IMG/VR virus record: IMGVR_UViG_3300036859_000203
Location: 1 to 42,134 of that record
Origin: a virus
Direction: 5' to 3' (one strand)
Length of the DNA stretch: 42,134 bases
Under the pieces are notes generated by a model that saw only the letters and a list, made by a program, of their open reading frames with translations, was not told the origin of the DNA and did no database searches. This document shows, piece by piece, positions 1 through 24,685 of the stretch (position 1 is the stretch's first letter; each line of letters opens with the position of its first letter). The position numbers and the translations under genes were made by a program.

Positions 1-139
1 TACTAAGTTTGAACTTGAAACCCCATCATCACGAAATGCAACCGTACCCGTACCGCTGGCAGCCGAGACTCGGCATCGCAATGCTGAAACTGTGTAGGCA
101 ACATAGAATTTGGCTTGACGGTATGCCTCAGTGAGGGAG
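1..139. repeat. Terminal direct repeat, left copy
   Basis: Bases 1-139 match bases 41996-42134 with a single difference (T at 91, A at 42086). The difference falls in the third position of a Thr codon (ACA versus ACT, minus strand) of the fibre gene that reads through it. This is what circular assembly of a phage population gives. It is not a convincing physical terminal repeat, because the reading frame continues unbroken across the join. Confidence 0.95.
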
Positions 140-4752: not shown

Positions 4753-5091
4753 CTAATCTGACCACGTTTCCTCTATCCGTCTGATCGCCGCCTTGATGAC
4801 GTTTGGCGCCATGCCCTTGACAATCGCCTCATTCTTTCGCTGCCACGACGAGCCGACCTGGCGCGGGTTGTGCAGCGTCGAGCTGAACGTGACCGCGAGC
4901 GGCTTATTGAAGCGCGATACCGTGTTGCGCCTTATGCCAAGACCAGCCTTTTTGACCGGGCGCTCGATGCGATCGCCGAATTTGTTGACAACCTCGTCGA
5001 TGGAAGGATCCAGGAGGACGCTGTAGCCCAACTTTCGCTCCAGCTCGTCGAGGCCGAGGATCTTGACGTTCTTGTTTACTGTCGCCGGCAT
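4753..5091 (-). CDS. HK97 gp10-like head-tail joining protein
   Basis: The true start is the ATG at 5091 (MPATVNKNVKILGLDELERKL), overlapping the upstream stop as TGATG; a longer open frame to 5316 has unnatural composition. The 112 residues include the family hallmarks: an early LGLDELERKL, a central helix with DRIERPVKKAGLGIRRN, and a C-terminal WQRKNEAIVKGMAPNVI. Gp10-like proteins act at the head-tail interface or in tail completion. Order (connector, gp10-like, terminator, tube) agrees. Confidence 0.75.
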   Translation of the reverse strand: MPATVNKNVKILGLDELERKLGYSVLLDPSIDEVVNKFGDRIERPVKKAGLGIRRNTVSRFNKPLAVTFSSTLHNPRQVGSSWQRKNEAIVKGMAPNVIKAAIRRIEETWSD

Positions 5092-5759
5092 CAGAATCTC
5101 GTTCCTGCGTGGTAGTCGGTCATGAGCCCCTGGAGGATTGCGCGCGCCTGCGGTGAGGCTTCGATCACGGCGTCCATTTCTGTAATCCGGCCCGTCGCAA
5201 ACGGCGACTTGAGCTGGATGATCGAGGTGAGGATGATCGTCGCGCTCTTGATCGCCGCCGGAACGGCAGGCCAGCCGTGAACCGCCGTGACCTTGACGCG
5301 CTGCCGCGGCGCCCATGCTCTCTGACTACCCCATTCCGTGAGGCCGATCTGTGAGTACGGCTTGACCTCGGGGCCGACGGCAGCGTTGCGTGGCAGCAGT
5401 TCGTAATCGTTCGCGACGAGTGTCTGCGAATAGGTCCCGTCCATACCCTGATCAATCTCGATTGACGTGAGAGTAACGATGTCCTGGACGTCGAGGACAC
5501 GGCTCAGGCCGCCATATTTCCAGGGATTTTCGGACTCAGCCCAATCGTCCCTTAGCGGCCTGCCACTGCTTTTAGGCATATAGATGCGGGCGGTCGCCGC
5601 CGCGTCCTTGTTAAAGCCGGAGGGACGGTCCAGTTTGTGATCTATGTAGCGCGAGACCGCAAGCAGGTCACGAGCGATGGCGACGCTATCGCTGCCGGAC
5701 GACTGCGTGATTGCAGTCCGATATTCTTCATCCGTTGCGTAGGCGTCCGCGATTGGCAC
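5091..5759 (-). CDS. Head-tail connector (gp6/gp15-like) protein
   Basis: 222 residues, starting ATG at 5759. Helical N-terminal segments (ADAYATDEEYRTAITQ, DSVAIARDLLAVSRYIDHKL) are followed by a beta-rich middle with VLDVQDIVTLTSIEI and YSQTLVANDYELLPRNA, then RVKVTAVHGWPAVPAAIKSATIIL. The last pattern (VTAxxGWpavPxxIk.A) is the typical signature of phage connector proteins of the gp6-like family, which stack beneath the portal. It overlaps the next gene by one base. Confidence 0.82.
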   Translation of the reverse strand: MPIADAYATDEEYRTAITQSSGSDSVAIARDLLAVSRYIDHKLDRPSGFNKDAAATARIYMPKSSGRPLRDDWAESENPWKYGGLSRVLDVQDIVTLTSIEIDQGMDGTYSQTLVANDYELLPRNAAVGPEVKPYSQIGLTEWGSQRAWAPRQRVKVTAVHGWPAVPAAIKSATIILTSIIQLKSPFATGRITEMDAVIEASPQARAILQGLMTDYHAGTRF

Positions 5760-5768
5760 TTCATCCCC

Positions 5769-6287
5769 TTATTCGATGTAGAGCGTTATGGTCATCGCCA
5801 TGCCAGCTGACTCGTTCGTCTCGGCCAGCGTGATTTGCAGAATGCCGTAGAGGTCGCGCGTGTCTGAGTGCACGAGTAGTGGCGCCGCCGGCGTCACGCT
5901 CGAAACCTTAAAGGAGAACGCGCCGACATCAACAAGCGCCGGGAAATCAATCTGGCCGAGATACTGGACGTTGTCTGCGGCAGCCAATGAAAAGGCCACG
6001 TTGTCCCGCATTTCCGAAGTCGTCGGAGCCGATGAGAACAGGTGCAGGCTGAACGTTGCGACGACGAGGCCACTGGTCGCGCCGCAAGCGAGCGAAGCGC
6101 CAACGAGCTTGCCTACGCCTCCAGTTTTCCGCAGCGCGTTGACAAATTGGATCGGTGCACCAACCGTGGCACTGCTAAAAACGACATCGTTCTGGGCATA
6201 GTTGCCAACCGCGGCCGCCGCAAACGCCGCCTGAACCGAGGAGATCGGCGAAAGCAGTTTGGCTGCAGTTTCGTATTCGGTGGTCAT
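5769..6287 (-). CDS. Uncharacterised probable virion protein, 172 aa
   Basis: The ATG at 6287 overlaps the previous stop (ATGA). The sequence is Ala/Val/Ser-rich, almost all predicted beta, with NYAQNDVVFSSA, RKTGGVGKLVGASLAC, VATFSLHLFSS and a last strand MAMTITLYIE. I recognise the general type as a small beta-sandwich structural protein often seen in phage head regions, but no family name. Between a zinc-ribbon protein and the connector, it may be a minor capsid or surface decoration protein. Confidence 0.72.
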   Translation of the reverse strand: MTTEYETAAKLLSPISSVQAAFAAAAVGNYAQNDVVFSSATVGAPIQFVNALRKTGGVGKLVGASLACGATSGLVVATFSLHLFSSAPTTSEMRDNVAFSLAAADNVQYLGQIDFPALVDVGAFSFKVSSVTPAAPLLVHSDTRDLYGILQITLAETNESAGMAMTITLYIE

Positions 6288-6547
6288 GCCTTATTCCTCG
6301 CCGGACGGCCGCGCCGTGGCGTCGTCGTCGTCGTAATAGTCTCGTCGTCGTCTGACTCCACCTCTTGCTTCGGCACCGCCATTTCCTCCGCCGCTATTTC
6401 GGCGAGAGCACAGACTGGCGTCCCGGGACGGGAGGTCGTGCCGTCGGCGAGGAAGCAACACCCGCAGACATAACAATGCAGCGCGCCTTCTTTGGCGCCG
6501 CCGCCCTCGTGAGGGGTGAGTCGAGAATCGCAATGTGGGCAATTCAT
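6284..6547 (-). CDS. Zinc-ribbon protein with an AT-hook-like C-terminus
   Basis: 87 residues. Two CxxC-type pairs (MNCPHCDSR at the start and HCYVCGCCF near residue 30) form a probable zinc ribbon. An acidic Asp/Glu/Thr linker follows, encoded by GTC/GTA triplet runs. The end is PRRGRPARNK, which contains the RGRP core of AT-hook minor-groove binders. It is coupled by ATGA to both neighbours: the glycosyltransferase-FkbM fusion upstream and the beta-rich protein downstream. A role binding DNA or regulating the local transcript is possible, as is a structural zinc protein; the AT-hook reading is an inference from one short motif. Confidence 0.72.
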   Translation of the reverse strand: MNCPHCDSRLTPHEGGGAKEGALHCYVCGCCFLADGTTSRPGTPVCALAEIAAEEMAVPKQEVESDDDETITTTTTPRRGRPARNKA

Positions 6548-7956
6548 TCTTTAACTCCCAACCAGTCGGAGTAAGTCGGCCGTCGGGCGATTTCCACTAA
6601 GCGGAAGCCGGCGGCTTCAAGTAGGCCCTTTAGCTCGGCAGCGCCAACGCCGGAATTGCGGCGCAGATGATGCTCGCAGACTTCACAGATGACGACCTGC
6701 GCGTGTTCGAGCAGCTCCGGACAAGATTCGAGAACCCGATATTCGTCGCCCTCTATGTCAAGCTTGACCATTTCCGGCCAAACGCCAGCGAGAATGTCCG
6801 GGAGTGAGCGCGCCTCGATCGAAAACGTTGGTTCATCCGTTTCGTGCTCGAGGCGATGCGCAGCGCCCGTATTTCCCGCGACGGCTTGCATGATCGCTTC
6901 GCCAGATGAGGGAGCGACGACGCACTGCTCTAGACGAATGTTCAGAGCTGACTCATTTAGGCCTACGCTCTTTCGCAAAAGGCCGGCTGCCCGGGGCATA
7001 GGCTCAACCGCGATAACCGGGTTTCCACGCGAAGCGGCGAGCAGCGAGTAATAACCGATGTGCGCGCCAAGATCGAGGAATGTCCAGCCAGGCTTGAGAT
7101 AATCAACGATCGCGTCGCGCGTGCCTTTGTCCCAATAACCCGATTGCCGCAGCGCCTGACAAATGAAATCGTCACGTGGATCAAGCGCGAGTTTGAAACC
7201 GTCGCCCGTCGTAATGACCTCCTCGGGCGGATTGTCGGCCTCCTCAGGACGTTCGAAATGGCGAGCCGTCGGCATGTTATGGACGTTGTACGGATAACCG
7301 CCGAGGTGGTAAAGGATGACACTTGGGTCGAGCCAGACTTTGAACCCAAGCCGTCGAGCACGTTCGCCGAATGCGTAGTCCTCAGAGAGATACTCGGTGT
7401 CGTTCTCGGTCTCGATCCAGAACGTGTCAAAAAATGGGTAGAGCGCATGCAGTGGATTCTCGGCGTTGCGACCACAGAGCGGCAGATCCCTAGTCATCGC
7501 GTCGAGGACATCGCGGTGGACGGCCATAAAACCCGTCGCCGGCCACTGAATCTCGACTGGCGGCCGGCTGTCGCCAAAAATGATCTCCTGGCCGGGAAAG
7601 CCGCGGCACGCCAGATGGCCGCCGTCCCGGACCGGGTAGGCGCCGACTGCAATCGACCGTTTCTCACGCGCAAGCGCGACAACACTCTCGGCCCCTTCAG
7701 CCGGGAAGACGATGTCATCGTCGATCATGAGGAATACGTCCTCGTTTGTGTTGCGGTACCACTGAGTCACGACACGAGAACGCACTCGCTGGATCAATGC
7801 GTCGCCGCGGCCGATCTGATAAGACCAGCCGCGGTTACGCATGACATCGAGGCATTCGGCCGTTTCGACGGTCAGGGAGCGATAGGCACAGAGCAGAATC
7901 GTTGTTGCGATTGCTGCCTGCGCCTCCTCTACCCCTGCTCGTTCCGCAACAACCAT
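6544..7956 (-). CDS. Bifunctional glycosyltransferase (GT-A) - FkbM-family methyltransferase
   Basis: About 470 residues from the ATG at 7956 (AGGGG five bases upstream). Residues about 18-225 form a GT-A glycosyltransferase: a short beta start (TTILLCAYRSLT), a DDD metal/nucleotide-sugar motif (FLMIDDDIVFP, about 79-81), an acceptor-side acidic motif SEDYAFGERA near 191, and VWLDPSVILYHLG. Residues about 255-445 form an FkbM-type SAM methyltransferase: FLDLGAHIGYYSLLAA near 293, AVEPMP near 317, and KLDIEGDEYRVLE near 397. The likely activity is transfer of a sugar and O-methylation of a glycan. It sits between the decoration-like protein and the connector genes, so capsid or tail glycan modification is an attractive but unproven role. 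Confidence 0.88.
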   Translation of the reverse strand: MVVAERAGVEEAQAAIATTILLCAYRSLTVETAECLDVMRNRGWSYQIGRGDALIQRVRSRVVTQWYRNTNEDVFLMIDDDIVFPAEGAESVVALAREKRSIAVGAYPVRDGGHLACRGFPGQEIIFGDSRPPVEIQWPATGFMAVHRDVLDAMTRDLPLCGRNAENPLHALYPFFDTFWIETENDTEYLSEDYAFGERARRLGFKVWLDPSVILYHLGGYPYNVHNMPTARHFERPEEADNPPEEVITTGDGFKLALDPRDDFICQALRQSGYWDKGTRDAIVDYLKPGWTFLDLGAHIGYYSLLAASRGNPVIAVEPMPRAAGLLRKSVGLNESALNIRLEQCVVAPSSGEAIMQAVAGNTGAAHRLEHETDEPTFSIEARSLPDILAGVWPEMVKLDIEGDEYRVLESCPELLEHAQVVICEVCEHHLRRNSGVGAAELKGLLEAAGFRLVEIARRPTYSDWLGVKE

Positions 7957-7965
7957 TGCGGCCCC

Positions 7966-8400
7966 TTAATTCGCGTTGACGCTGACGTATTGGGCCGCTG
8001 GCGACGTGGGCGGCACGACACCGGTGCCACGGAAGCGCTCGGCGAGGATACTCGCGAGCGTGACGTTGGCCGTGCCAGCGTTGGCAACCACGCCGACGTA
8101 ACGCTTGGCCGGCCGATAGACGTCGATAACAAACACGTTGTTGTTCGACGTGTTTGCAATCTGAACGACGGCTGCACCGCTGATATTCGTGCCGTTGCCG
8201 AGGTTTGATTCCGCCGACTCCTGCACCCAGGCATCGAGGGTCGCACCGCTGACCATCGCTCCCACCTGGATCATGAATCTGACCCGGTCATAACCCACCA
8301 TATCAACGGCTGCGCTGACGGCGTTGGCCACTGATTCGTCCACAAGCGCCGGAGCGCGGACGACGGTGATGATGCTTTGTGCGCCTGCGTGTCCTGACAT
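7966..8400 (-). CDS. Head decoration-like protein, 144 aa
   Basis: The start ATG at 8400 has GGGAGG nine bases upstream. The protein is beta-rich and lacks charged helices. Its layout (SIITVVRAPALVDESVAN, DRVRFMIQVGAMVSGATLD, VVQIANTSNNNVFVIDVYRP, KRYVGVVANAG) is common in small proteins encoded right after the major capsid protein, usually described as capsid decoration or hypothetical virion proteins. No catalytic motif. The call rests on order and fold pattern. Confidence 0.72.
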   Translation of the reverse strand: MSGHAGAQSIITVVRAPALVDESVANAVSAAVDMVGYDRVRFMIQVGAMVSGATLDAWVQESAESNLGNGTNISGAAVVQIANTSNNNVFVIDVYRPAKRYVGVVANAGTANVTLASILAERFRGTGVVPPTSPAAQYVSVNAN

Positions 8401-8466: not shown

Positions 8467-9969
8467 TTAGGCTGCGATGACTCCAGTCCGAATCGCATCG
8501 TAGTTCCAGAGGCCGCCGCCGACCCGGACGAACAGGAAGAGGCCCGTCTGGTCCGTGTCGCCGAAGCGCTCTGTCAACACGCGGACGCTGATCTGGGCGC
8601 GGTCGATGATGTAGTAGGCAGAAATGTCGCCGAAGATCAGCGGCGTCGTCGCTGGTGTGGTGCTAACTGAACCGTCGGCGCCGACAAACTCGGAGTTCTC
8701 AACCGGGAAGCCCTCGATCAGCATTTGGGGGCGAGCAAAGCCGCTATCGAGGTATGAGTTCCAGAACGGTCGGCCGTTCGCGTCTACCAGGCCGGCGATC
8801 GCGCCCTGAATGCTGCGGCGCATGATCCAGGAGGCGTTTGCGGCGTACTGCGAAGGTAGCTGGTAGACCAGCTGCTTGATTTTCGGCGCCGAGCCGGGGT
8901 CAGCGACCGTGTTACTGATTGTGTTCGAAGTTGTGCCTTCCACGTCGTAGGCCATGCCGGCTGAGGCCACGACCGTCAACGCGAGCGAATGACTGAGGAT
9001 GCCCGTCGGCTCCAGCGCCGGGGAGGCGCCGGTTGGCCCCGCGATAAACGCTTGATCTTCCTTCAGCGCGATCGAGCGGCCGCCGCGGCTGGACAGGTCT
9101 GAGATCAGATTTCCTACCGAGTCGGCGATGAGATCGTTGCTGAGCAGCGTGTAAGCGCGCAGCTTCTTGATACCGATCTCGAACTGCTGGAACACGACAT
9201 CGATGCTGGACTGTGACGGCGTCTCGCCGACCCAGGCGGCGACGAAGTCGTCCGCGTAGATATTGCGGGTCGCGGCCGTTGAGTTTGGCGCGACCATTGG
9301 CTGAATCCAGCGATCGCGGACGGTCGTGCGGACGGTCGCAAGCCGCCGCATGATGCTCGTCTGGTCGCGCCGACCGCCGATCTCAGCCTGGATGTCGGGC
9401 GGAACTGTGAATCCGCCGGCGCCGTCCGATCCCTCGGAGAGCGCCTTCTGCTCGGCGGACGAAAGCATGGCCAGCGCCATCGCCTGCCCCTGAGGCGCAG
9501 CGCGATACCACTTGATCCAGGCTTCGCGATACTCAGGCTGGATAATCGCGCGCGTCTGCTTCACGTACTGCGCCGAGGACGCCTCTTCAGGCAGCGGCCC
9601 GAAGAGAACCTCGTTCGGATACATGGGCACCGACTTGCCGGTTGAGATCGGCGCGTGCCACATGCCACCCTTGAGCTCCCAGCCGATGCGCTGGAGGCTC
9701 TTCTCCTCGCCGTCATCCGAGTTGATCGGGTGCGGGACGTGGTGCACCGGCTCGTCCAAATAGGCCTTGTGGCGATCGGTATCGGCGTCAGCGAGGCGCT
9801 GCTTTTCCTTCTCGATCTCCTGGACGATCTTTTCGCCGCGCTTTGTCAGCGTCTCGAATTCCGTCCGGCTGTCCTCGGGCATAACGGCGCCCGGGTTCTT
9901 TTCGCGCAGCGTCGTCCGCCTGGCGATGTTCTGTTCCAGTTCCTCATTGAGCGCCGTTAGCATTTCCAT
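8467..9969 (-). CDS. HK97-type major capsid protein
   Basis: 500 residues, start ATG at 9969 with AGGAG six bases upstream. Residues 1 to about 65 are a coiled-coil scaffold-like delta domain (EELEQNIARRT, EFETLTKRGEKIVQEIEKEKQRL). A linker rich in Asp/His follows, then the capsid fold with GGFTVPPDIQAEI near 185, ISDLSSRGGRSIALKEDQAF, NASWIMRRSIQGAI and a final strand segment ISVRVLTERFGDTDQTGLF. The family is cleaved by the protease encoded next door to remove the delta domain. Confidence 0.93.
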   Translation of the reverse strand: MEMLTALNEELEQNIARRTTLREKNPGAVMPEDSRTEFETLTKRGEKIVQEIEKEKQRLADADTDRHKAYLDEPVHHVPHPINSDDGEEKSLQRIGWELKGGMWHAPISTGKSVPMYPNEVLFGPLPEEASSAQYVKQTRAIIQPEYREAWIKWYRAAPQGQAMALAMLSSAEQKALSEGSDGAGGFTVPPDIQAEIGGRRDQTSIMRRLATVRTTVRDRWIQPMVAPNSTAATRNIYADDFVAAWVGETPSQSSIDVVFQQFEIGIKKLRAYTLLSNDLIADSVGNLISDLSSRGGRSIALKEDQAFIAGPTGASPALEPTGILSHSLALTVVASAGMAYDVEGTTSNTISNTVADPGSAPKIKQLVYQLPSQYAANASWIMRRSIQGAIAGLVDANGRPFWNSYLDSGFARPQMLIEGFPVENSEFVGADGSVSTTPATTPLIFGDISAYYIIDRAQISVRVLTERFGDTDQTGLFLFVRVGGGLWNYDAIRTGVIAA

Positions 9970-9978
9970 CTCTTTCTC

Positions 9979-11046
9979 CTAATCGAGTTTGGCTGCGCCT
10001 GCGGTTAGGGGCCGGAAGCCCAAAACCGATTGAAGCTTGCGCAATTGAGCTTTCCGTTCGTCCTTAACCGAAAATCCGTCATCGTCATCGTCATCGTCGT
10101 CGTCCGGCTTTGAAGCCTTCATTCCCACCATCGGGCAGCCCTCGCCGCCGTCACAATTCGAGGCGTCGTGCAGCGCCATCGCAGCGCTCAAGATGGTGTG
10201 CAGCTTCGTGAGGTTAGCCTCGCTCAGCGTGGCGCCAGCCTTCTGCTCTTCGAGGTGGTCGAGCTCCACCAGAATTGTCGCGAGCGCTTTGCCGGCGCTG
10301 TCTGTTCCGACGCCCTCAGCCTCAGCGTGTCGCTGGAGGTGCGCCTTCGCCCGGGCGTGCTGCGCCTCGGTGAGATCGGCCTGCGGCTCGCGCGAGAGCG
10401 CGTTGCGGAGGTGAGGCACGTCGACCGTACCCTCGGCGCTGTGATGCGGCAGCTTCCGCAGATCCCGCGGCACCGTCTTGCCCTCGTCGTCCTTTTCGCC
10501 GCCAGGCAGGACAATTGCGAACGCCGAGTCGGGTAGATTGTTGATGTAGGCGGCATCCCACTCGGCCTTGCTCTCAATACCCTTGACGGCCAGGGTGCGC
10601 GTGCCGTAGGCGGCGCCAACGAGGACAGGAGAACATTCGAAGAGCTCCAGGTCCCGGATCGTCCGGACGTACATCTGCGAGCCTTTGCCGTCGTCCTTGT
10701 ATTCCCAGATCTGATCGAGGACGCGGAACCCAATCGAGTATTGCTGGAGTTCAGCCATCGCCTTGACGGTCTTGTAGGCTTCCTCGCCGCGCTGCGTGTC
10801 AAGGAAGAACTGGCCGTTGAAGATCGCTTCGCTGGAAGTAACTTCGATCGTGCCGGCGCCGACGGGATGATCCCAATCGTGAGACCAGACAAGCGGGACC
10901 TTTTTGCCCCTGCTGCTGGCGAAAGATTCCGGCGCCATGATGTCGCCGTCGCGGTCAAGCTGGTTGAAGGTGGAGACAATCGCCGAGAGTTCGCCCTGAG
11001 CGCCAAGCTCTTTTAGGGTTATGAACTTCGTTTCGCGTTCGTCCAT
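9979..11046 (-). CDS. HK97-type prohead protease with C-terminal extension
   Basis: Read from the ATG at 11046 (MDERETKFITL), about 355 residues. The S78 protease core is present: a His-containing VPLVWSHDWDHPVG near 50-62, the nucleophile Ser in LQQYSIGF near 104, and an acidic residue in DLELFECSPV near 137. The region after about residue 155 adds a separate segment (FAIVLPGGEKDDEGKTVPRDLRKLP, HLRNALSRE) found in several phage proteins, then an Asp run encoded by GTC/ATC triplets. An ATG at 11079 in the same frame would translate the hairpin just upstream. The SD-like GAGGG of the 11046 start lies in that hairpin, so initiation may be regulated. Confidence 0.9.
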   Translation of the reverse strand: MDERETKFITLKELGAQGELSAIVSTFNQLDRDGDIMAPESFASSRGKKVPLVWSHDWDHPVGAGTIEVTSSEAIFNGQFFLDTQRGEEAYKTVKAMAELQQYSIGFRVLDQIWEYKDDGKGSQMYVRTIRDLELFECSPVLVGAAYGTRTLAVKGIESKAEWDAAYINNLPDSAFAIVLPGGEKDDEGKTVPRDLRKLPHHSAEGTVDVPHLRNALSREPQADLTEAQHARAKAHLQRHAEAEGVGTDSAGKALATILVELDHLEEQKAGATLSEANLTKLHTILSAAMALHDASNCDGGEGCPMVGMKASKPDDDDDDDDDGFSVKDERKAQLRKLQSVLGFRPLTAGAAKLD

Positions 11047-11074
11047 AAAAAACGGCCCTCGTTGAAGAGGGCCG
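11047..11074 (-). terminator. Hairpin plus U-tract abutting the prohead protease start
   Basis: On the minus strand CGGCCCTC, a six-base loop TTCAAC, and GAGGGCCG form a perfect 8-bp stem followed at once by six T residues, the form of an intrinsic terminator. The U-tract touches the ATG of the prohead protease, and the only SD-like GAGGG is in the 3' arm. It could be an attenuator for the capsid transcript, a translational switch, or both. Confidence 0.7.
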
Positions 11075-11132
11075 CGCATGGTCTCGCGATGGAGGGGCCG
11101 CTAAAACCCGCTTATGCGTTTTGTCAGATGCA

Positions 11133-11166: not shown

Positions 11167-11343
11167 CTAAATCGATTTTGTTTCGACTTTTTCCCGAAAA
11201 CTCGGCGTTGCACCGTTAGCCGTAACCTCTAAACGATTCGCCGCTCGACAATGATTGCAGTAGACGACGACCTTAATCCGCCCGTCGACGTCGTCGACGT
11301 TAAGGCGTTTATTGCAGCGCCAGCAGCGATATTCCCTCGCCAT
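11167..11343 (-). CDS. Com-like zinc-ribbon protein, 58 aa
   Basis: Translated from the sequence: MAREYRCWRCNKRL, a short acidic/basic turn, then VVVYCNHCRAANRLEV. The two CxxC pairs (Cys7/Cys10 and Cys29/Cys32) match the layout of phage Mu Com-like zinc ribbons, which have RCxxCNKLL followed by IKCPRCxxxN. Mu Com is an RNA-binding translational activator of mom. The ATG at 11343 overlaps the portal TAA (TAATG). It precedes the candidate promoter and hairpin leader of the protease gene, so a role acting on that leader is a testable idea. A simple structural zinc protein is the alternative. Confidence 0.75.
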   Translation of the reverse strand: MAREYRCWRCNKRLNVDDVDGRIKVVVYCNHCRAANRLEVTANGATPSFREKVETKSI

Positions 11344-12647
11344 TAGGGTGTCGTTCCGTTTCCGTTGCTCGCCACGACAGGCTCAGGCGGCGGCGGATTC
11401 TCGGGTGGTGCCGACTCTTCGACTGGCACAAGTAGCCTGGCCGGCGTCGGAATCAGGTTCGCCGGCACCAGATAGACATCATCGCCAGGCGGGTTCTCTG
11501 GTTTACCGGTCTCGCGCCGGCCTTCTTCGACCGTCCAGACGCCGGACATTACAAGTTTGGCAGCGCGTTCGGCGATCGCCGTCTGATCCGGCTGGAGTGC
11601 CCAGACGTCCGTGAGATCGAAGGCGACCTCGTCGACGCCGCTAAATTCCGGCACCAGGCGCAAATTGAGCGGTCCGGCGAGCTCTTTGTAGAGCGGCGTC
11701 AGCGTACCCGTCCAGAAATCCTGTGATTCGGCGCGTTTGTTAGCGTAGCCGCCGTTCTGGTAGCTGGTCCGGGTCCCGATCAGGCTCTGTGGCACGCCAA
11801 ATACCATCGGTATGCGCGCCTCTTCGATCTCGTCCAGCTCCGGAATCACGAGGCCACGAGCACCGAGCGACATTGACATCGGCGTGTAGGTCGACTCGGC
11901 ATTGTCGAGGATCAGGAGCTCATGCCAGCCGGAGGGGCCGGCAAAATTGTTACGGAAGCGGTTTTTGATCGCCTCTTTCTGCTCCTCCGAGACCTTTTGT
12001 TTGACGGAGAGTACGGCGCCGGGCATACCGCCATTTTGGAACGCCGCTTTGACGAAATCCTTCATGTAGTTATCGATGTCGGTCCGGCCGGACGCCGGCA
12101 TGAGCGGCGGCATGCCATACCAGTCGTCGAGCGGGTTGCGATTCTTGAAGTGAATCACGTCGCGCGGCGCTATCTCGTAGACCTGACCGACGCCGGCGTT
12201 GTAGATATAGCGATCGATGTAGGTGGTCTGTGAAGGCACGATCCGAACGCGATCAGGCCGCATCAGCCACAACTCGACGACCTTTTGCGACGCCGAACGC
12301 ACCTTGAGGGCGTAGGCATTGCCGGCGAGCGAGCGGTGCATGATGATCGTCGCCCAAAACTCGAAGTAGCTGAGGAACGGATTGGGGCGATTCAGCAGCG
12401 AGAGTATCGGCGAGACTCGCGACCATTGCTCGCCGTAGCGCGCCTGCATTTTCGGCTCCGCCGCGGAGGTCGAGAGCTCTTCGATGCAGGCGTAGATCAG
12501 CTCGTTCTTCGAATAACCTTCGCGTGCGTAGGTCTCATAGCGGTTGTTGGGGAGTTGCGCGCGCCCGGCCTGCCAGACTGGTACGGTCGCGGCGAAGTTT
12601 TGAACCCGCGGGATCGTTGCTTTTAATGTCTGCGCAAATAGACCCAT
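11343..12647 (-). CDS. Portal protein (HK97-like)
   Basis: 434 residues, ATG at 12647 (MGLFAQTLKATIPRVQ). Family features include an early YSKNELIYACIEELSTSAAEPK, then LLNRPNPFLSYFEFWATIIMHRSLAGNAY, DVIHFKNRNPLDDWYGMPPL near 170 and YQNGGYANKRAESQDFWTGTLTPL near 310. These are the wing and clip region signatures of siphovirus portals. The C-terminus is Pro/Glu-rich and variable. The portal forms the dodecameric DNA channel at one capsid vertex. It sits between terL and the protease as expected. Confidence 0.92.
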   Translation of the reverse strand: MGLFAQTLKATIPRVQNFAATVPVWQAGRAQLPNNRYETYAREGYSKNELIYACIEELSTSAAEPKMQARYGEQWSRVSPILSLLNRPNPFLSYFEFWATIIMHRSLAGNAYALKVRSASQKVVELWLMRPDRVRIVPSQTTYIDRYIYNAGVGQVYEIAPRDVIHFKNRNPLDDWYGMPPLMPASGRTDIDNYMKDFVKAAFQNGGMPGAVLSVKQKVSEEQKEAIKNRFRNNFAGPSGWHELLILDNAESTYTPMSMSLGARGLVIPELDEIEEARIPMVFGVPQSLIGTRTSYQNGGYANKRAESQDFWTGTLTPLYKELAGPLNLRLVPEFSGVDEVAFDLTDVWALQPDQTAIAERAAKLVMSGVWTVEEGRRETGKPENPPGDDVYLVPANLIPTPARLLVPVEESAPPENPPPPEPVVASNGNGTTP

Positions 12648-12657
12648 GTGACGCCTC

Positions 12658-12834
12658 TCATCCTGACGCGAACTCGAAGAGCCGCACCGCTAGGCCAAGT
12701 GTAAACGCCGCGACGAGGATTGTCCCGACAACGGACGTCACGATGATCACAATTTGCGCGAGCAAGTGCCGATCTTCCTCATCGAGCACCGCGCCAACTA
12801 TATGCGCCATTTTCTTTAACTTGCTCACGATCAT
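12658..12834 (-). CDS. Small membrane protein between terL and portal
   Basis: 58 residues from the ATG at 12834 (MIVSKLKKMAHIVGAV), which overlaps the terL stop as ATGA. It has an acidic-helical segment (LDEEDRHLLAQ) then a hydrophobic stretch of about 25 residues (IVIIVTSVVGTILVAAFTLG) and a short polar end. One transmembrane segment, probably N-in. The function is unknown. A membrane protein here is unusual but sometimes seen in actinophages. A longer upstream frame has Arg-rich composition and is not real. Confidence 0.7.
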   Translation of the reverse strand: MIVSKLKKMAHIVGAVLDEEDRHLLAQIVIIVTSVVGTILVAAFTLGLAVRLFEFASG

Positions 12835-14468
12835 GCGAAGAATACTCCCACAACCTGCGGCTCGCCGGCGCCAGCCGCGACCGCATCGAGCCGCGCCTGC
12901 CATGAGAGGCAGCCAGCCATCGCCGCATCAATCTTGTTAGGCGAGCCCGGGCGGTCTTTCTGAATTAACCAGAGTGGTGCTCCGTCGTCATCGCGGAAGT
13001 TGAGCGGATTTTTCTGAGCGTTGCCGATATGGCGCGTAAAGGTGGGGTCGCCGTTGTGCGTCGCCTCGCCGGCCTCGATCGCGTTCGCATAGGCGCGCAG
13101 TGCGACCGCCATTTTGCGATAGAGAGTTGTCGACCAGGCGACGACGCGCTTGGCTTCATATTTGCCCGCCCAAATTGCCAGCCAGGTATCCCATTTTGAC
13201 GGGTCGGCGTACATGCGCCAGATGTCGAAATCGGTGAACGCTTGATCCACGGCCGCATCAACCTCGCCCTTTGGCACTTGCCAGGCGTCGCGATCGGTTA
13301 AGTGTTCCGGTCGCGCCCAGATGCCGATTGGCCATTGAAAACCCGTGAGGACGTTAGTCGCAATCAGCGCCGTCGTGTCTTCGTTAATCGAGCCGTCAAA
13401 GCCGAGCGTAATCACGGCGCCCGGGACGATCAGCTCGGAGCGCTCGTTGCGCTCCCACTGCGTGACATTGAACGCCTGGGCTGCCGTGGCGATCGGGCGA
13501 TTGAGAAAGACACGCTCCAGGTAAGGCTTATCGGTCGTAGGATCTTGCCATTGTTCAGTTATCCCGTTGATGTCTTTCCACGCTGCCGTCGGCCCAGCCG
13601 CCTCGACGATCGCCGCGCGGAGCTGCTCGGGGTCTGTGAGGTCATAACCGTCTCGCGCCTGGCGGTGAAAGAAGAAGAGCCGCGGGTCCTGGATCTTGCC
13701 GTCAGCAACGTCCTTCGCGTAGCTCGCCGTCTGTTCAGCGACGCTGTTCTCGCCGGGAACATAGGCCGTCGTTGTCTCAAGTTCCCATGGCTCCGCCATT
13801 GGACGCTTTGTCAAATTAGCGATCGTGGTCCGATGCGCCCGAATTAGGCGAGGCAGATTCCAGCGATGGGTCTCGTCTTTGTGAGAAAAAGTGGTGCGCG
13901 CACCATCACGCGCATCAGGTGCGCCGGCGAGCGCGACCGCCTTACCATCGCCCATCGCGCGGATGATCCGCTCCATGCCAATGTCGAAGTCGCCAGAGAT
14001 CGGACTCAGTTCGAGGATCGCCTTGAGCGCCGCATAGGCGAGGTCGTCGGCCTGCTCTTCGGTATAGGCCATCATCGGGATATACGGGTCGACGACCGGC
14101 CGGCCGACGGGGTTGCCGCTCGCGTCGAAGCCATCGCAGCGCACCGGACCCTCGGGGTGGAGCTCGACCGCAGCGATCCATGCGGCGAGCTCCGTTTTTG
14201 CACTACCCTTTTGAAGTGACAGCGCAACGCGGCGGAAGCGCCGGCGACCCTCGATTGGCTTGCCGTTGCCGTCGCGTGTGCCGCGCGGATAGACCTCATA
14301 CATCCGGTAGATCAGGGCGCGCTTTTCATCGTCCAGTTTGGCGCGCAGTCCACGCAAGTCGCCTGGACCGAAGACAAGGTTTTGCTCAATAAACGCGCAG
14401 ACCTGTGAACCCAGGCTCGGCCATTCCTCACCATCGGGCTCGAACGGCGGGACAGCGAGGACGGTCAT
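12831..14468 (-). CDS. terL: Terminase large subunit
   Basis: 545 residues. The ATPase domain has a divergent Walker A, SLQKGSAKTELAAW near 85-98, followed by the segment PYIPMMAYTEEQADDLAYAAL that carries the Walker-B region. The nuclease domain shows VITLGFDGSINEDTTALIA near 345 (first catalytic Asp) and IDAAMAGCLSW near 515 (last Asp). The GSAKTE-type Walker A and the ELHPEGPVRCDGF segment are, to my knowledge, typical of actinobacteriophage terminases. ATGA overlap with terS. TerL translocates DNA into the prohead and cuts it. Confidence 0.93.
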   Translation of the reverse strand: MTVLAVPPFEPDGEEWPSLGSQVCAFIEQNLVFGPGDLRGLRAKLDDEKRALIYRMYEVYPRGTRDGNGKPIEGRRRFRRVALSLQKGSAKTELAAWIAAVELHPEGPVRCDGFDASGNPVGRPVVDPYIPMMAYTEEQADDLAYAALKAILELSPISGDFDIGMERIIRAMGDGKAVALAGAPDARDGARTTFSHKDETHRWNLPRLIRAHRTTIANLTKRPMAEPWELETTTAYVPGENSVAEQTASYAKDVADGKIQDPRLFFFHRQARDGYDLTDPEQLRAAIVEAAGPTAAWKDINGITEQWQDPTTDKPYLERVFLNRPIATAAQAFNVTQWERNERSELIVPGAVITLGFDGSINEDTTALIATNVLTGFQWPIGIWARPEHLTDRDAWQVPKGEVDAAVDQAFTDFDIWRMYADPSKWDTWLAIWAGKYEAKRVVAWSTTLYRKMAVALRAYANAIEAGEATHNGDPTFTRHIGNAQKNPLNFRDDDGAPLWLIQKDRPGSPNKIDAAMAGCLSWQARLDAVAAGAGEPQVVGVFFA

Positions 14469-14953
14469 AGCGCCCTCAAGAAGCGTCGCGGATCGCTACC
14501 CGCGCCCTCTAATGTTGATTGCTGTTCTGCTGCCTCTAGCAGAGGTTTGTGGGGGCGCGGGCCTGGCGTGACGCGACTGCGGGAGCTTGGCGACATGCCG
14601 AACTCGACGAGGATGCGCGTCATTTGCTCCATTGCCTTGTTGGCGATTGCCAGGTACGGAGACTGCACCGGGAAGCTTGAAGGTGTCATGATGACCGTCC
14701 CATATTTGGCGAGCTGCTCCTCGGCCTCGAGCCAGCGAGCCCAGGCTTGGCAGTAGATCGCCAGCGCCGTCTTGTCGATGTCCGTGAGTAAGCCTGCGTC
14801 ACGTAGCCGTCGCCCCAGCCGACTCCATTCCTTACGCGCCTCGCCCTGCAGGTGAGGAGGGCGGGTGGGCAGGTGCGCATCTAATCCAGAAAGGCTGATG
14901 CGCTCAGGCCGACGAGTACTCATGCCCTGAGGTTTTGGTTTGCGACCCCTCAC
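14465..14953 (-). CDS. terS: Terminase small subunit (P27-like)
   Basis: 162 residues, starting GTG at 14953 with AGGAG seven bases upstream. The pattern RGRKPKPQ, then RPPHLQGEARKEWSRLGRRLRDAGLLTDIDKTALAIYCQAWARW, then YGTVIMTPSSFPVQSPYLAIANKA matches the P27-type small terminase family (GRKP start, LTxxD.aaL..yc..w, NP.l....a). These proteins recognise the packaging site and bind TerL. It is immediately before terL. Confidence 0.92.
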   Translation of the reverse strand: MRGRKPKPQGMSTRRPERISLSGLDAHLPTRPPHLQGEARKEWSRLGRRLRDAGLLTDIDKTALAIYCQAWARWLEAEEQLAKYGTVIMTPSSFPVQSPYLAIANKAMEQMTRILVEFGMSPSSRSRVTPGPRPHKPLLEAAEQQSTLEGAGSDPRRFLRAL

Positions 14954-15524: not shown

Positions 15525-16775
15525 TCAACGGGTCACCGGCGCTTTCTCGCTCTCTGAGACGGTTCTGACACACTCGGCCTGGCGACCGGTGTACTCCTCC
15601 CAGCGCCTCACCGCCACGTCAACGTAGCGAGGCTCGATCTCCATCGCGTAGCAACGGCGCCCGAGGCGCTCGGCAGCGATGATGGTGGTCCCTGAACCAG
15701 AAAAGGGCTCGTAGCAGAGGCCGCCTAACGGCGTGTGGTACTCGATCGGGCGCGCGCTGATCTCGACTGGCTTCTGCGTCGGGTGGATGCCGTCAGATTC
15801 GCCTTGCTGATTAATTTGCCAGACGGAATGCGCATTCGCGGGCGGCTTCCGTTTAGGTTGATTACCTTTGAGCCAGCCGTACAACGCTGGCTCATGCTGC
15901 CACATGTAGTGCGAACGCGTCAGAACGGGTCGGGCCTTAACCCAAATAATCACTTGGTGGAGATGGAGTCCGGCCCTCGCCCAAGATGCCTCAACAATCG
16001 ATTGGCGCAGGTTGGCATGCCACTGATACACGGCGGCATCGGGCAGCAAATGGGGAAGCGCCGCATCGATGAAGGCGAAGAAAAAATCGCCTGCTTGATC
16101 TGGATCGCGGTAATCGTCCCAGTGCTTGTCTCTGACGCTCGGTTTGTTGTGCCAGGACTGCGGATGATTGTCGCCCTGGTAATCCACTAAATAGGGCGGG
16201 TCGGTCGCCATCAACGCAGCGTTCTGGCCGTTCATCAAGCGCGTCACGTCCTCTGCGTTGGTCGAGTCGCCGCATAGCAGCCGGTGCTCACCCAGGAGCC
16301 ATAGATCACCATGCTTCGTCCGTGTTGGCACATCGGTGGGTATGGCGTCCGGGTCGGTCAGCCCATCGTGGGGCATCGATCGGAAATGTCCAAGAACCCC
16401 AATAAGGCGAGTCTGATTGCTTAGTTCGGCGAACAGGGCGTCCAACTTCGCCTTGTCGGTAAGCGCCATCCCGGAAAGCGGATCGAACGTGGCGAGTATT
16501 AGCGCCTCTTCTTCGTCACTCAGGTCGACGTAGACCACAGGCACCGAGGGTTCGGCGCGCTCAAGGGCAAGTTCGATCCGGGCATGACCGTCGAGAATGT
16601 GGCCGGTCAGCTTATTGACGATTACGTCCTGTACCCAGCCAACCTCTGACAATACTGCAGCCAATGCTTCGGTTTGGGCCTTGGGGTGTTTGCGCCAATT
16701 CTTCGGGTTGGCGGTTAAGTTAGAGGGTGAGACGTTGGCCCGGCCGATTATGCGAGAGCGCCACTGTTCAGACAC
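15525..16775 (-). CDS. ParB-like domain fused to a DNA methyltransferase
   Basis: 416 residues from the GTG at 16775, which has GGAGGGG upstream; a GTG at 16790 is in frame. Residues about 15-95 are a ParB/Srx-like domain (LTANPKNWRKHP, VIVNKLTGHILDGHARIELALE). The methyltransferase follows with motif IV DPPY near 190 before motif I-type EPFSGSGTTIIAAERLGR near 375, and IHPTQKPVEI between; this order is the beta class, N6-adenine or N4-cytosine. ParB-methyltransferase fusions are frequent in phages and may protect phage DNA from host restriction. It pairs with the RAMA-like gene downstream. Confidence 0.9.
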   Translation of the reverse strand: MSEQWRSRIIGRANVSPSNLTANPKNWRKHPKAQTEALAAVLSEVGWVQDVIVNKLTGHILDGHARIELALERAEPSVPVVYVDLSDEEEALILATFDPLSGMALTDKAKLDALFAELSNQTRLIGVLGHFRSMPHDGLTDPDAIPTDVPTRTKHGDLWLLGEHRLLCGDSTNAEDVTRLMNGQNAALMATDPPYLVDYQGDNHPQSWHNKPSVRDKHWDDYRDPDQAGDFFFAFIDAALPHLLPDAAVYQWHANLRQSIVEASWARAGLHLHQVIIWVKARPVLTRSHYMWQHEPALYGWLKGNQPKRKPPANAHSVWQINQQGESDGIHPTQKPVEISARPIEYHTPLGGLCYEPFSGSGTTIIAAERLGRRCYAMEIEPRYVDVAVRRWEEYTGRQAECVRTVSESEKAPVTR

Positions 16776-16861
16776 GAGGACCCCCTCCACAATTCCGCAG
16801 ACACAAAAAAGTTGGTACGCGAGCGCCTCCGGGGCAAAACGAACCCAAAATTTTTGATCCC

Positions 16862-18094: not shown

Positions 18095-19582
18095 CTAAGC
18101 CGTAACGGTCTCCAGTATTCGGGCCAGCGCGCGCGCTTCCTGCGCCCAGATGATGTTGAGCGCTTTCCCATTGACCTCGATGCGCTCCGTGAACGCAGCG
18201 ATGATCTCGCGCCAATCCTCTTTCTCCAGATCAGACCAGTCGATACTCGCCGCGAGGCGCAGTGCGGCGCCGACGTCGGGTACGCGCACGTCCTGCAGGT
18301 CCTCCAGCTCGTGCCTTATCGATGCGGCGATGCCCTCAATCTCCAGCATCGTCGAGGTGTAGAGGCGCTCCGAGACGACGCCGCGGGCGAACTTGCGCGT
18401 GAGGCTGCGCTGATCGGCTTCCTGCCGGCGCAATGAGCGCTCGAGCTGCTGCTTGCGCTGGCCGAGGCCGTCTAGGTAGGTGTCCTGCTCGGCGCTAATG
18501 ATTTGCTCAGCCCGTCGGCGCTCGACAGTCGTCCCCAGGACGAAGGTCTCGGAGACCCGTCGCTTCACCTCGTTGTCCAGCATCCACGTCGCCACGGTAG
18601 GCTGCGCGCAGCCGGAACCGTCGTGCTTTCGAGGACATTTGTACGAGTGATAGACCTTATCCGGGTAGCGACTCGTCTTTCGCTGCTGGGCGTACATGGG
18701 CGCGCCGCAGGCGCTGCAGCGCAGACGCCCTATGAGCAGTTGACGCGCCTCAGTCGGCGGCCCCTGACGCTCCCTGTTGAAGCCGAGCATCCGCTGCACC
18801 GCGTCGAAGGTGGCCTGGTCAACTAGCGCCTCATGTTGACCGTCCGCCTCGTACCAGTCGCTGCGCTTGCGCTGCCTTGATTTGCGTGGCGCGAGCTTTT
18901 CGCGGCGGCCCCAGACGCTGCGGCCGAGGTAGGCAGGGTTGCGCAGCAGTCGCGAGAGCTGCGTGCGGTCGAGGCGCAGGTCTAGCATCAAAGCCTCACG
19001 TGAGAGAGCGCGCAGGCTGACTTTGCCCTCGGCGTAGACATCGAAGAGTCGCGTTATCTTCCATGCATCGGCGTTCAAGTGAAGTGTTCTGCCGCCGCCC
19101 TCGGCCGGGATGACGTCATAGCCGAGAGGGGCAACACCCACCCACTTGCCCTCGTTGATACGACGCAGCATCGCCGGGACCGTTCGCTGCCGAATACGCG
19201 CCGACTCGTCTTCGGCGAGCAAGGCGAGGATGCCAGCGACCAGGTTACTCTCGGTCGGCTCAGTGGCCGACTGTAGAACGACGCCGAGGCGCTTCAGACG
19301 CTTCGTTGCGTCGAGTAACTCCGCAGCGTCGCGACCGAAACGATCAAGGCGGTAGGCGACAACAACGTCGATGCTGCCCGCGAGCGCCAGCTCGAAGAGT
19401 TGCAGATAAGCCGGTCGCTCGGTATCGAGACCAGAACGGCCCTCGTCACGCAGCACGACAACGACTTCACCGCCGGCGCGAGCAACGTAAGCGCGACAGG
19501 TCTCTTCCTGGACGCTGAGAGAGACGTGATCGCCGCCCGTTTGACTGATCGTGCTAACCCGGAGGTAGATCGCCGCCCTCAC
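18095..19582 (-). CDS. int: Large serine recombinase (integrase)
   Basis: 495 residues from the GTG at 19582, with AGGAG five bases upstream; upstream open frame to 19873 is a shadow. Resolvase domain residues 1-140: YLRVST with the nucleophile Ser10, then VVAYRLDRFGRD, and ARIRQRT near 155. A recombinase domain follows (GYDVIPAEGGGRTLHLN, LLRNPAYLGR), then a zinc ribbon (LRCSACGAPMYAQQ with YKCPRKHDGSGC) and a coiled coil (EQDTYLDGLGQRKQQLERSLRRQEAD). This is the complete large serine integrase layout. It should integrate phage DNA at a host att site and implies a temperate life cycle. Confidence 0.95.
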   Translation of the reverse strand: MRAAIYLRVSTISQTGGDHVSLSVQEETCRAYVARAGGEVVVVLRDEGRSGLDTERPAYLQLFELALAGSIDVVVAYRLDRFGRDAAELLDATKRLKRLGVVLQSATEPTESNLVAGILALLAEDESARIRQRTVPAMLRRINEGKWVGVAPLGYDVIPAEGGGRTLHLNADAWKITRLFDVYAEGKVSLRALSREALMLDLRLDRTQLSRLLRNPAYLGRSVWGRREKLAPRKSRQRKRSDWYEADGQHEALVDQATFDAVQRMLGFNRERQGPPTEARQLLIGRLRCSACGAPMYAQQRKTSRYPDKVYHSYKCPRKHDGSGCAQPTVATWMLDNEVKRRVSETFVLGTTVERRRAEQIISAEQDTYLDGLGQRKQQLERSLRRQEADQRSLTRKFARGVVSERLYTSTMLEIEGIAASIRHELEDLQDVRVPDVGAALRLAASIDWSDLEKEDWREIIAAFTERIEVNGKALNIIWAQEARALARILETVTA

Positions 19583-19686
19583 CGCTTCTCCTGCGCCTTC
19601 CGCAGCGCCGCGCGCGCAATCACCCTCGCGATCGTGTCGCGAAGCGATTGCTGCGGCCGAGACGGGGCCCGGGCTGGACGCATCAT
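19579..19686 (-). CDS. Small basic peptide gene overlapping both neighbours
   Basis: A 35-codon frame from the ATG at 19686 (or 19683) to the TGA at 19579-19581. Its start overlaps the stop of the DUF5131 gene (ATGATG/TGA) and its stop overlaps the integrase GTG as GTGA. Both couplings are the norm in this phage, which supports real translation. The peptide starts MMRPARAPSRPQQS and ends in a basic amphipathic helix (RDTIARVIARAALRKAQEKR). It might serve only to couple integrase translation to upstream genes or act as a small DNA- or protein-binding peptide. Confidence 0.55.
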   Translation of the reverse strand: MMRPARAPSRPQQSLRDTIARVIARAALRKAQEKR

Positions 19687-20543
19687 GACGTGGATGGCGC
19701 CTCCTGGGCAAGCGGCCATTGGCGGACGCGCAGATCTTCGGGGAGGTCTTCGAGCTTATTTCCTGGTCGCGCTCCGCCGAGCTGCTTGACAAAGCAGGCG
19801 ACATTGCAGATGTCGCATTCGGCGACGAGGCGGCGCGCCCATTCGGCATCGAATGGCCGGTGCTTCGGGCCACTTTCGCCGCCGATGATTACCCAATCGA
19901 GGCCGGGGCTATCGAAATGGTCGCCGGCATCCTGGCTGTAGGTCTTGAGCCAAGAGAGAATGCCTACCTCGGTGTCATGGATCAGCGATACCGGCCCTAG
20001 CAGCGGTTCGGCACTGATGAAGCGCACCGCGGCCGGCGTGTCGAGCAGGATCGGGATGCGCTCATCTGCCCAGCGCTGATTCTCTACCGTACAACCCAAC
20101 CACATGTTGGGGAGAACCCAATAATTCCCATCCGCCTGCTGCAGATTCGCTCTGCAGAAGCGAGTAACAAGGTCACGCATCCGCTCGGGGCGCTTCGTCA
20201 GAACTTGGAAGATATGCTGCCGAGCCTGCTCCATAATGCAGAACACATCGAATACAAAATTGTCTGGTATCTGCTCGTGAAACAGATCACTCATCGAATC
20301 AACGAAAACCATGCGCGGCGTTTTCCAGCGCAGCGGCGCGTCTAGGCGCTCAGGGTGCAGGATGACGTTCTCGGCGGCGTTCGCCGGCGTCCACGGCTTG
20401 AACTCGGCAGGCCAGCCAGGCCTCCCGGCGTAGCGCGCCGTCAGCGTTTCGGCGTAGCAGTGTGCGCAGCCAGGCGAGACCTTCGAGCAGCCAGTAGTCG
20501 GGTTCCAGGTTTCCTCAGTCCATTCGATCTTCGATGGACTCAC
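19683..20543 (-). CDS. DUF5131 (phage Gp37/Gp68) three-Cys-motif protein
   Basis: 286 residues, GTG start at 20543 overlapping the previous stop (GTGA). It opens KIEWTEETWNPTTGCSKVSPGCAHCYAE: the CxxxxxxCxxC motif characteristic of the family. Later landmarks are MVFVDSMSDLFHEQIPD, FQVLTKRPERM, WLGCTVENQ, FISAEPLLGP, DWVIIGGESG and CFVKQLGG, in order and at full length. The cysteines resemble those of radical-SAM enzymes. Family function is unknown to me; a partner (TcmP) often adjacent elsewhere is not seen here. Cytoplasmic. Confidence 0.9.
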   Translation of the reverse strand: MSPSKIEWTEETWNPTTGCSKVSPGCAHCYAETLTARYAGRPGWPAEFKPWTPANAAENVILHPERLDAPLRWKTPRMVFVDSMSDLFHEQIPDNFVFDVFCIMEQARQHIFQVLTKRPERMRDLVTRFCRANLQQADGNYWVLPNMWLGCTVENQRWADERIPILLDTPAAVRFISAEPLLGPVSLIHDTEVGILSWLKTYSQDAGDHFDSPGLDWVIIGGESGPKHRPFDAEWARRLVAECDICNVACFVKQLGGARPGNKLEDLPEDLRVRQWPLAQEAPSTS

Positions 20544-24263: not shown

Positions 24264-24685
24264 TAACCCCACAGCTCCGCAATCTGGCCTGACATCGTGA
24301 AATGGTGCCCAACCTCACAGATGTAGCCTTCAGGGCCGATCTCTCTCCATTCACCCCGACACTTCGGGCAGCCTTGCCTGCTGGCAGGGATTGACGGCGC
24401 TGGCGGTTGAGACGAGTCGGGGCGCGGGAGGTCGTATTTTTCGGCTAATTTGCTGAAGGGTAGTGGCGGTGAAAAGCAGCAATCGAAAAGGAATCGACGA
24501 GGCATTCGTGCCGGGTCTTTTACATTGGGGTACTTCTCGATTTCGCAATCGATGATCCCTTGGATCATGTTGTACAGGTCCTCAAAGGCGACCAGCGATC
24601 CAGACGCCGGCGTTGTGACTCTCACCCACAACTTCCCATTGGAGCTTCTCTCCTTGTTAATCACCATGCGATTACGGGCTGTCAT
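24263..24685 (-). CDS. Uncharacterised early protein with C-terminal zinc ribbon, 140 aa
   Basis: ATG at 24685, overlapping the methyltransferase gene by 14 bases. The N-terminal half has LWVRVTTPASGSLVAFEDLYNMIQGIIDCEIEKYPNV, mixed alpha/beta. A Pro/Ser-rich linker leads to a C-terminal zinc ribbon (CPKCRGEWREIG with CEVGHHF). No family recognised. Coupled by TAATG to the replication gene, so a role in replication control is possible. Confidence 0.65.
   Translation of the reverse strand: MTARNRMVINKERSSNGKLWVRVTTPASGSLVAFEDLYNMIQGIIDCEIEKYPNVKDPARMPRRFLFDCCFSPPLPFSKLAEKYDLPRPDSSQPPAPSIPASRQGCPKCRGEWREIGPEGYICEVGHHFTMSGQIAELWG

Follow-up and report, generated by a model that had tools for sequence, protein, structure and literature searches.

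The DNA analysed here, called the window throughout, is the viral record IMGVR_UViG_3300036859_000203 at its full length of 42,134 nucleotides. Because it carries a direct terminal repeat of 139 bp (window positions 1-139 and 41996-42134, identical at 138 of 139 positions), the record probably represents a whole genome, either circularly permuted or circular. Its head genes follow one another on the minus strand in the order terS, terL, portal, prohead protease, major capsid protein (MCP), a decoration-like protein, a fusion of a glycosyltransferase (GT) with an FkbM-family methyltransferase, a zinc-ribbon protein, a 172-aa protein and the head-tail adaptor (Table 1). The annotation of the surrounding genes confirms that the fusion gene sits between the capsid and decoration genes on one side and the connector genes on the other, as had been read from the sequence. 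A relative of the 172-aa protein was found in a single locus of our comparison, L008. The terL product is about 49% identical to terL of Gordonia and Mycobacterium phages, a level of identity that suggests an actinobacterial host for this soil-type phage. Outside the head cluster, a serine-recombinase-type integrase is encoded at 18095-19873 (PHROG_95 and DNA-invertase matches). The gene at 15525-16790 on the minus strand joins a ParB-like domain to a DNA methyltransferase (PHROG_498, with ParB-type matches in the N-terminal half), a second DNA methyltransferase lies at 24672-25559, and the tail protein at 34170-36374 has a weak Laminin_G_3 match.

Table 1. Features of the head gene cluster and of the fusion gene, in window coordinates.
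Feature	Position	Strand	Basis or remark
terS	14465-14953	-	
terL	12831-14468	-	
Portal	11343..12647	-	PHROG_12
Prohead protease	9979..11079	-	PF04586
HK97-type major capsid protein (MCP)	8467..9969	-	PF05065, 168.8 bits; PHROG_10
Decoration/cement-like beta protein, 144 aa, candidate acceptor	7966..8400	-	Predicted fold and position
Codon of decoration residue N72	8185..8187	-	Comparison of relatives with and without the GT
GT-FkbM fusion gene	6544..7956	-	470 aa, uninterrupted single frame
GT-A glycosyltransferase domain, residues 1-238	7243..7956	-	Predicted fold and family alignments
DXD-type metal/sugar-nucleotide motif D79-D80-D81	7714..7722	-	Family alignments
SED motif S191-E192-D193 (within SEDYAF)	7378..7386	-	GT family alignments
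FkbM-family SAM methyltransferase domain, residues about 243-470	6547..7230	-	PF05050, TIGR01444, class I methyltransferase fold
DLGAHIGYYS, SAM-binding motif of the FkbM domain, from D295	7045..7074	-	FkbM domain comparison
KLDIEGDE motif of the FkbM domain, start residue 398	6742..6765	-	Comparison with L006 and L097
Zinc-ribbon protein, 87 aa	6284..6547	-	ATGA overlap with the fusion gene at 6544-6547
172-aa protein, function not assigned	5769..6287	-	Between zinc ribbon and adaptor
Head-tail adaptor	5091..5759	-	PHROG_442

Both the fusion gene and the zinc-ribbon gene are read from the minus strand, the plus-strand translation of 6284-7956 being full of stops. That a GT and an FkbM methyltransferase are encoded by a single gene, as the sequence-only reading proposed, is borne out by a frame without a stop and by an FkbM domain that scores above the curated cut-offs of both TIGR01444 (75.9 against 37.7 bits) and PF05050 (44.1 against 22.7 bits). 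In Pfam the GT half scores weakly, with 21.8 bits for PF13506 against a cut-off of 21.7. It stays below the gathering cut-off for GT family 2 (PF00535, 13.6 against 23.3 bits) and, at the profile level, bears only a distant resemblance to dolichol-phosphate mannose synthase (E 1.3e-5). In PHROGs, phrog_1574, annotated as of unknown function, covers the GT half and phrog_8156, a methyltransferase family, covers the FkbM half; the identity of the GT half, though weak in Pfam, is clear from PHROG_1574 and from the predicted fold. The motifs lie where the first reading had seen them, with KLDIEGDE beginning at residue 398. D79 and D81 are invariant in a GT alignment with 13 homologues (A3), and in a wider alignment of 22 rows (A6) D81 is still invariant while D79 is kept in at least 90%. 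D193 is likewise invariant in the wide alignment, and S191-E192-D193 is the likely catalytic region. In the methyltransferase half, DLGAHIGYYS is conserved with the FkbM domains of two other loci, L006 and L097, and across all three the K, the DIEG and the final E of KLDIEGDE are invariant.

The AlphaFold model of the fusion (mean pLDDT 82) is that of a soluble two-domain protein, and its pTM of 0.58 leaves the mutual placing of the two domains unsure. Most of the GT region is modelled at a pLDDT of 79-98. The C-terminal half is predicted to adopt the class I SAM methyltransferase fold, and the GT half has the GT-A fold, both in the model itself and by its match to A197 of the archaeal virus STIV (2c0n; Z 18.4, rmsd 2.6, 174 residues). 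This is the best solved-structure match of the GT domain among the matches listed, most structure-alignment rows for the fusion belonging to the methyltransferase half.

The place of the gene in the genome was compared across 50 contigs anchored on the MCP (about 38% MCP identity or more), which were chosen without regard to the GT. Six were not scorable; in 34 of the other 44 the decoration gene is followed by a GT, or by a methyltransferase that starts a GT gene, and in the remaining 10 it leads straight to the zinc ribbon or the adaptor. Five of the 34 were scored by the methyltransferase start alone, the contig end being reached there, the contig of L060 was scored as carrying the GT through its decoration-anchored locus L115, and the independent lineages are fewer than the contig count because some contigs are near-identical. 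Head modules had been said to carry such a gene rarely; in this clade a GT is the norm. The neighbour order on which that reading had called for a check holds up, since MCP, decoration protein, GT with or without a methyltransferase, zinc ribbon and adaptor follow one another in many viral contigs of the GT- and MCP-anchored scans by profile annotation. Additional genes occur near the slot; in L007 and L009, for example, they separate the zinc ribbon from the adaptor gene, and the one at L009:4260-5072 encodes a Laminin_G_3 (concanavalin-like lectin) protein.

The fusion itself is far less widespread than the slot. Among the loci tested in an FkbM-anchored scan, this GT was found only in L006 and L097, and the exact GT-FkbM arrangement, for which the sequence-only reading had proposed a search in other phages, is rare (L097). 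No full-length relative was found in viral contigs by a close search, none of 50,697 phages in the phage collection has a record covering 80% of the fusion, and genome contigs gave no full-length relative and one remote match (27%). The GT-FkbM fusion of L097 (L097:9689-11338) belongs to a remote GT branch; its contig has no recognisable head genes, and the neighbouring genes are unmatched save for a weak tape-measure match. Other phages were set aside: Rhodobacteraceae phage LS06, where the end of a GT gene is overlapped by a small gene, as in the window, but one that is not a zinc ribbon and has replication genes around it; the isolate ctOK67, with a somewhat related MCP, where no annotated GT lies beside the zinc-ribbon slot; and the isolate GAL1, with a somewhat related terL, whose head region is without an annotated GT.

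The zinc-ribbon gene is joined to the fusion gene by the ATGA that had been noticed in the sequence, a coupling that could place the small protein in the sugar system. This is not borne out: the zinc ribbon keeps its place in relatives that lack the GT (L025, L027, L030, L041, L046 and others), so that it belongs to the head module and stands outside the sugar system. Nor does the AT-hook assignment survive comparison, since RGRP occurs in the tail of the window's protein only, relatives carrying other tails behind a CPxC...HCxxCGCC ribbon core that is conserved across the family. The zinc-ribbon slot of ctOK67, between capsid and connector genes, holds a gene (L020:9489-9713) with the annotation 'at hook motif'. 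Two GTs carry CxxC zinc-knuckle-like ends, a C-terminal tail in L003:6405-7193 and an N-terminal head in L013:1172-2008, as though a ribbon had become part of the GT in these loci.

The methyltransferase that accompanies the GT varies in kind and in position. The first MCP relatives inspected already differ, L003 having the GT alone in the slot and L004 a different methyltransferase fused before it. In most GT genes of the relatives a Methyltransf_23-type domain (MT23) stands in front of the GT; L006 has an FkbM domain in front, the window and L097 have FkbM behind, L095/L096 have MT23 behind, in L064 the GT is followed by a separate overlapping methyltransferase gene, and in L003, L005 and L007 the GT stands alone, with no separate methyltransferase gene in the stretches read beside it. 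In the GT tree, L005, L003, L006 and L007 form a clade of five with the window (support 100/98), which thus holds GT-alone, FkbM-GT and GT-FkbM forms. Because the forms differ within this clade, FkbM seems to have joined the GT more than once; the FkbM domains of the window, L006 and L097 are 32-37% identical. Several separate joinings of this GT to methyltransferases are the parsimonious reading of these sequences, and their repetition is the main argument that the methyltransferase would act on the product of the GT. In L006 the MCP has diverged (44% identity) while the GT is close (62-63%), a contrast that suggests movement of the GT slot from one phage to another. Pairwise dN/dS values between related contigs are 0.03-0.34 for the GT and MT23 domains, the two domains covered since no FkbM pair was close enough, and lie within the range of the capsid genes; by these ratios both domains are under purifying selection in the relatives.

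If the enzyme acts on the virion, the protein encoded just upstream is a candidate acceptor. It is predicted to be an eight-stranded beta protein (AlphaFold pLDDT 74.5), whose top folds include the BPP-1 cement protein 3j4u_H (Z 10.0; Foldseek E 2.3e-3) and the Carin1 capsid chain 8cjz_A (Z 9.4; Foldseek E 1.4e-3), with unrelated beta proteins reaching equal Z. Position and predicted fold together are suggestive of a decoration protein. At residue 72 the protein has Asn in 26 of 27 genomes that carry the GT, the exception being L036 with Leu, and Asp, Pro or Thr in all eight relatives that lack the GT (Asn in 0/8). This is the best column of the decoration protein for separating the two groups, and no MCP column separates them as well; none of 1708 clade-matched random sets reached 0.95. 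A further exception is one contig (L042/L119) for which the alignment gives Pro at residue 72 and a methyltransferase gene still follows. For a decoration-anchored scan the prediction was written down beforehand: the sole new contig with the GT (L115) has Asn72, and of about 45 new relatives without it one (L139, poorly aligned) has Asn72 and about half have Asp. Because these new GT-less relatives are mostly distant, they mark Asp as the usual state and add no independent switches. The association amounts to about three state changes, with one independent pair on well supported branches. We regard Asn72 as a lead for the putative acceptor site of the GT. N-glycosylation sequons in the decoration proteins reach about twice the shuffled number, but they do so alike in genomes with and without the GT and are thus uninformative; residue 72 itself often lies outside a sequon.

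Several known viral systems combine the same activities. In the cassette of mycobacteriophage Corndog, genes for an O-methyltransferase and GTs lie between portal and protease (PMC4351075), and the region of Firecracker has the order portal, O-methyltransferase, GTs, protease and capsid (Corndog gp35-38, Firecracker gp33-36). The Corndog set is reported to modify capsid and tail tube (PMC11600133, citing Freeman et al. 2023). Like the window, this Corndog-type (Cluster O) cassette places a GT and an O-methyltransferase inside the head gene cluster; it differs in having separate genes, several GTs, an O-methyltransferase of the TylF type rather than FkbM, and a portal-protease slot rather than one after the decoration gene. 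The capsid of Che8 carries glycans (PMC11256854, citing Freeman 2023), and its gp108 (L099:16172-17347), annotated 'glycosyltransferase', is by Pfam a GT2 fused to a TylF/Methyltransf_24 O-methyltransferase. It therefore resembles the window's protein in joining the two functions in one chain, but gp108-110 lie at the far genome end, with gp108 beside two other GTs. The stand-alone O-methyltransferase gp33 of Firecracker belongs to the same Pfam families as the O-methyltransferase part of Che8 gp108. The window shares with Che8 and Corndog a GT and an O-methyltransferase in one gene set, yet profiles of the GT, FkbM and MT23 domains detect no sequence homology with the Che8 and Firecracker GTs and O-methyltransferases.

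Outside the phages, A064R of the chlorovirus PBCV-1 is a GT-GT-MT protein that builds the terminal sugar of the MCP glycan, a rhamnose, and 2-O-methylates it (PMC9614988). Compared by its literature description, it too unites GT and methyltransferase domains in one viral protein; it differs in having two GT domains and one methyltransferase, in belonging to a eukaryotic virus and in elongating an existing N-glycan, and its layout of two GTs followed by a methyltransferase is not that of the window's fusion, which has one domain of each kind. STIV A197 is an essential GT suspected to glycosylate the capsid protein, and the STIV MCP is glycosylated (PMC10551542). It shares the viral GT-A fold and is the best structural match among those listed, but it has no methyltransferase domain, is about 17% identical, and comes from an archaeal virus with another capsid fold. 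By analogy, the phage system resembles Che8, Corndog and A064R in its proposed action, and membership of their protein families is not indicated.

Taken together, the gene would encode an enzyme of the late operon whose target is the virion of the phage itself, and we consider it probable that it glycosylates a virion protein and then O-methylates the sugar. The N-terminal GT-A domain would take a sugar from a sugar nucleotide of the host and attach it to a protein of the virion; the decoration protein, whose gene lies just upstream, is the most likely recipient, or else the capsid protein. The C-terminal FkbM domain would use SAM to methylate a hydroxyl of the transferred sugar, and the fusion would keep the two steps together. 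In this scheme we infer that a virion protein is the substrate and that the newly attached sugar receives the methyl group, and likewise which sugar is donated and which residue accepts it. The MCP, a tail protein or a glycan of the cell surface would be equally good candidates for the acceptor. Neither sugar transfer nor methylation can be essential in the clade, because 10 contigs have no GT and three have a GT without a fused methyltransferase. A more specific version is tentative and on the whole doubtful: here the methylated sugar would be put directly on one residue of the decoration protein, gain of the GT would go together with a change from Asp to Asn at residue 72, and the methyltransferase would be swapped between families and between the ends of the GT, changing the virion coat.

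Two other targets for the enzyme have to be weighed, and both seem unlikely to us. In one, the enzyme would alter a glycan of the host cell wall or capsule during infection or lysogeny, masking the receptor or excluding superinfection, and its place among the head genes would be incidental. The serine-recombinase-type integrase indicates that the phage may be lysogenic, and serotype-converting GTs are carried by temperate phages (PMC5537653, PMC12619734); yet the position between decoration protein and zinc ribbon is kept throughout a deep clade, the PHROG matches of the scanned genes include no flippase or gtr-type gene, and the fusion is modelled as a soluble two-domain protein. The other, to which we give about the same low probability, would make the gene an accessory one (a moron), placed where the head operon happens to tolerate insertions and acting on a small molecule or another target outside the virion. 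Its absence from 10 of the 44 scorable relatives and the extra genes near the slot in L007 and L009 agree with this. Against it stand the persistence of one gene in one slot in 34 contigs whose MCPs go down to about 40% identity, the recurrent pairing with methyltransferases, and purifying selection.

DNA hypermodification is a very unlikely role. The GT would then glycosylate a modified base and the methyltransferase domain would methylate it, blocking restriction; glycosylation of DNA by phage GTs is well documented (PMC12619734) and the phage carries the two DNA methyltransferases described above. No base-hydroxymethylase-type gene, however, is found among the PHROG matches of the scanned genes, and the fusion gene lies in the head module. 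Moreover, the substrates known for FkbM proteins are small molecules and sugars. That two adjoining genes were wrongly joined by an assembly or frameshift error, which the sequence-only reading had named as grounds for abandoning the fusion, can be practically dismissed: the 470-aa frame is clean, fusions of the same domain kinds occur in two other viral contigs, one of them reversed (GT-FkbM in L097, FkbM-GT in L006), and many other contigs have MT23-GT fusions. Modification of the virion stays the reading that we prefer.

To our knowledge, virion glycosylation has been established experimentally in only a few phages. The present comparison adds uncultivated phages of one clade, where the GT as a rule neighbours the capsid and decoration genes and its methyltransferase partner is variously arranged. 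Modification of virions by phage GTs and O-methyltransferases has been reported before; what is new here are the independent enzymes, the new slot and the swapping of partners across the clade. The analysis also suggests a function for PHROG family 1574, which carries no annotation, points to one specific candidate acceptor and offers natural relatives with and without the GT for comparison. We speculate that methylated glycans on the shell could affect antibody recognition, lectin binding or the stability of the phage.
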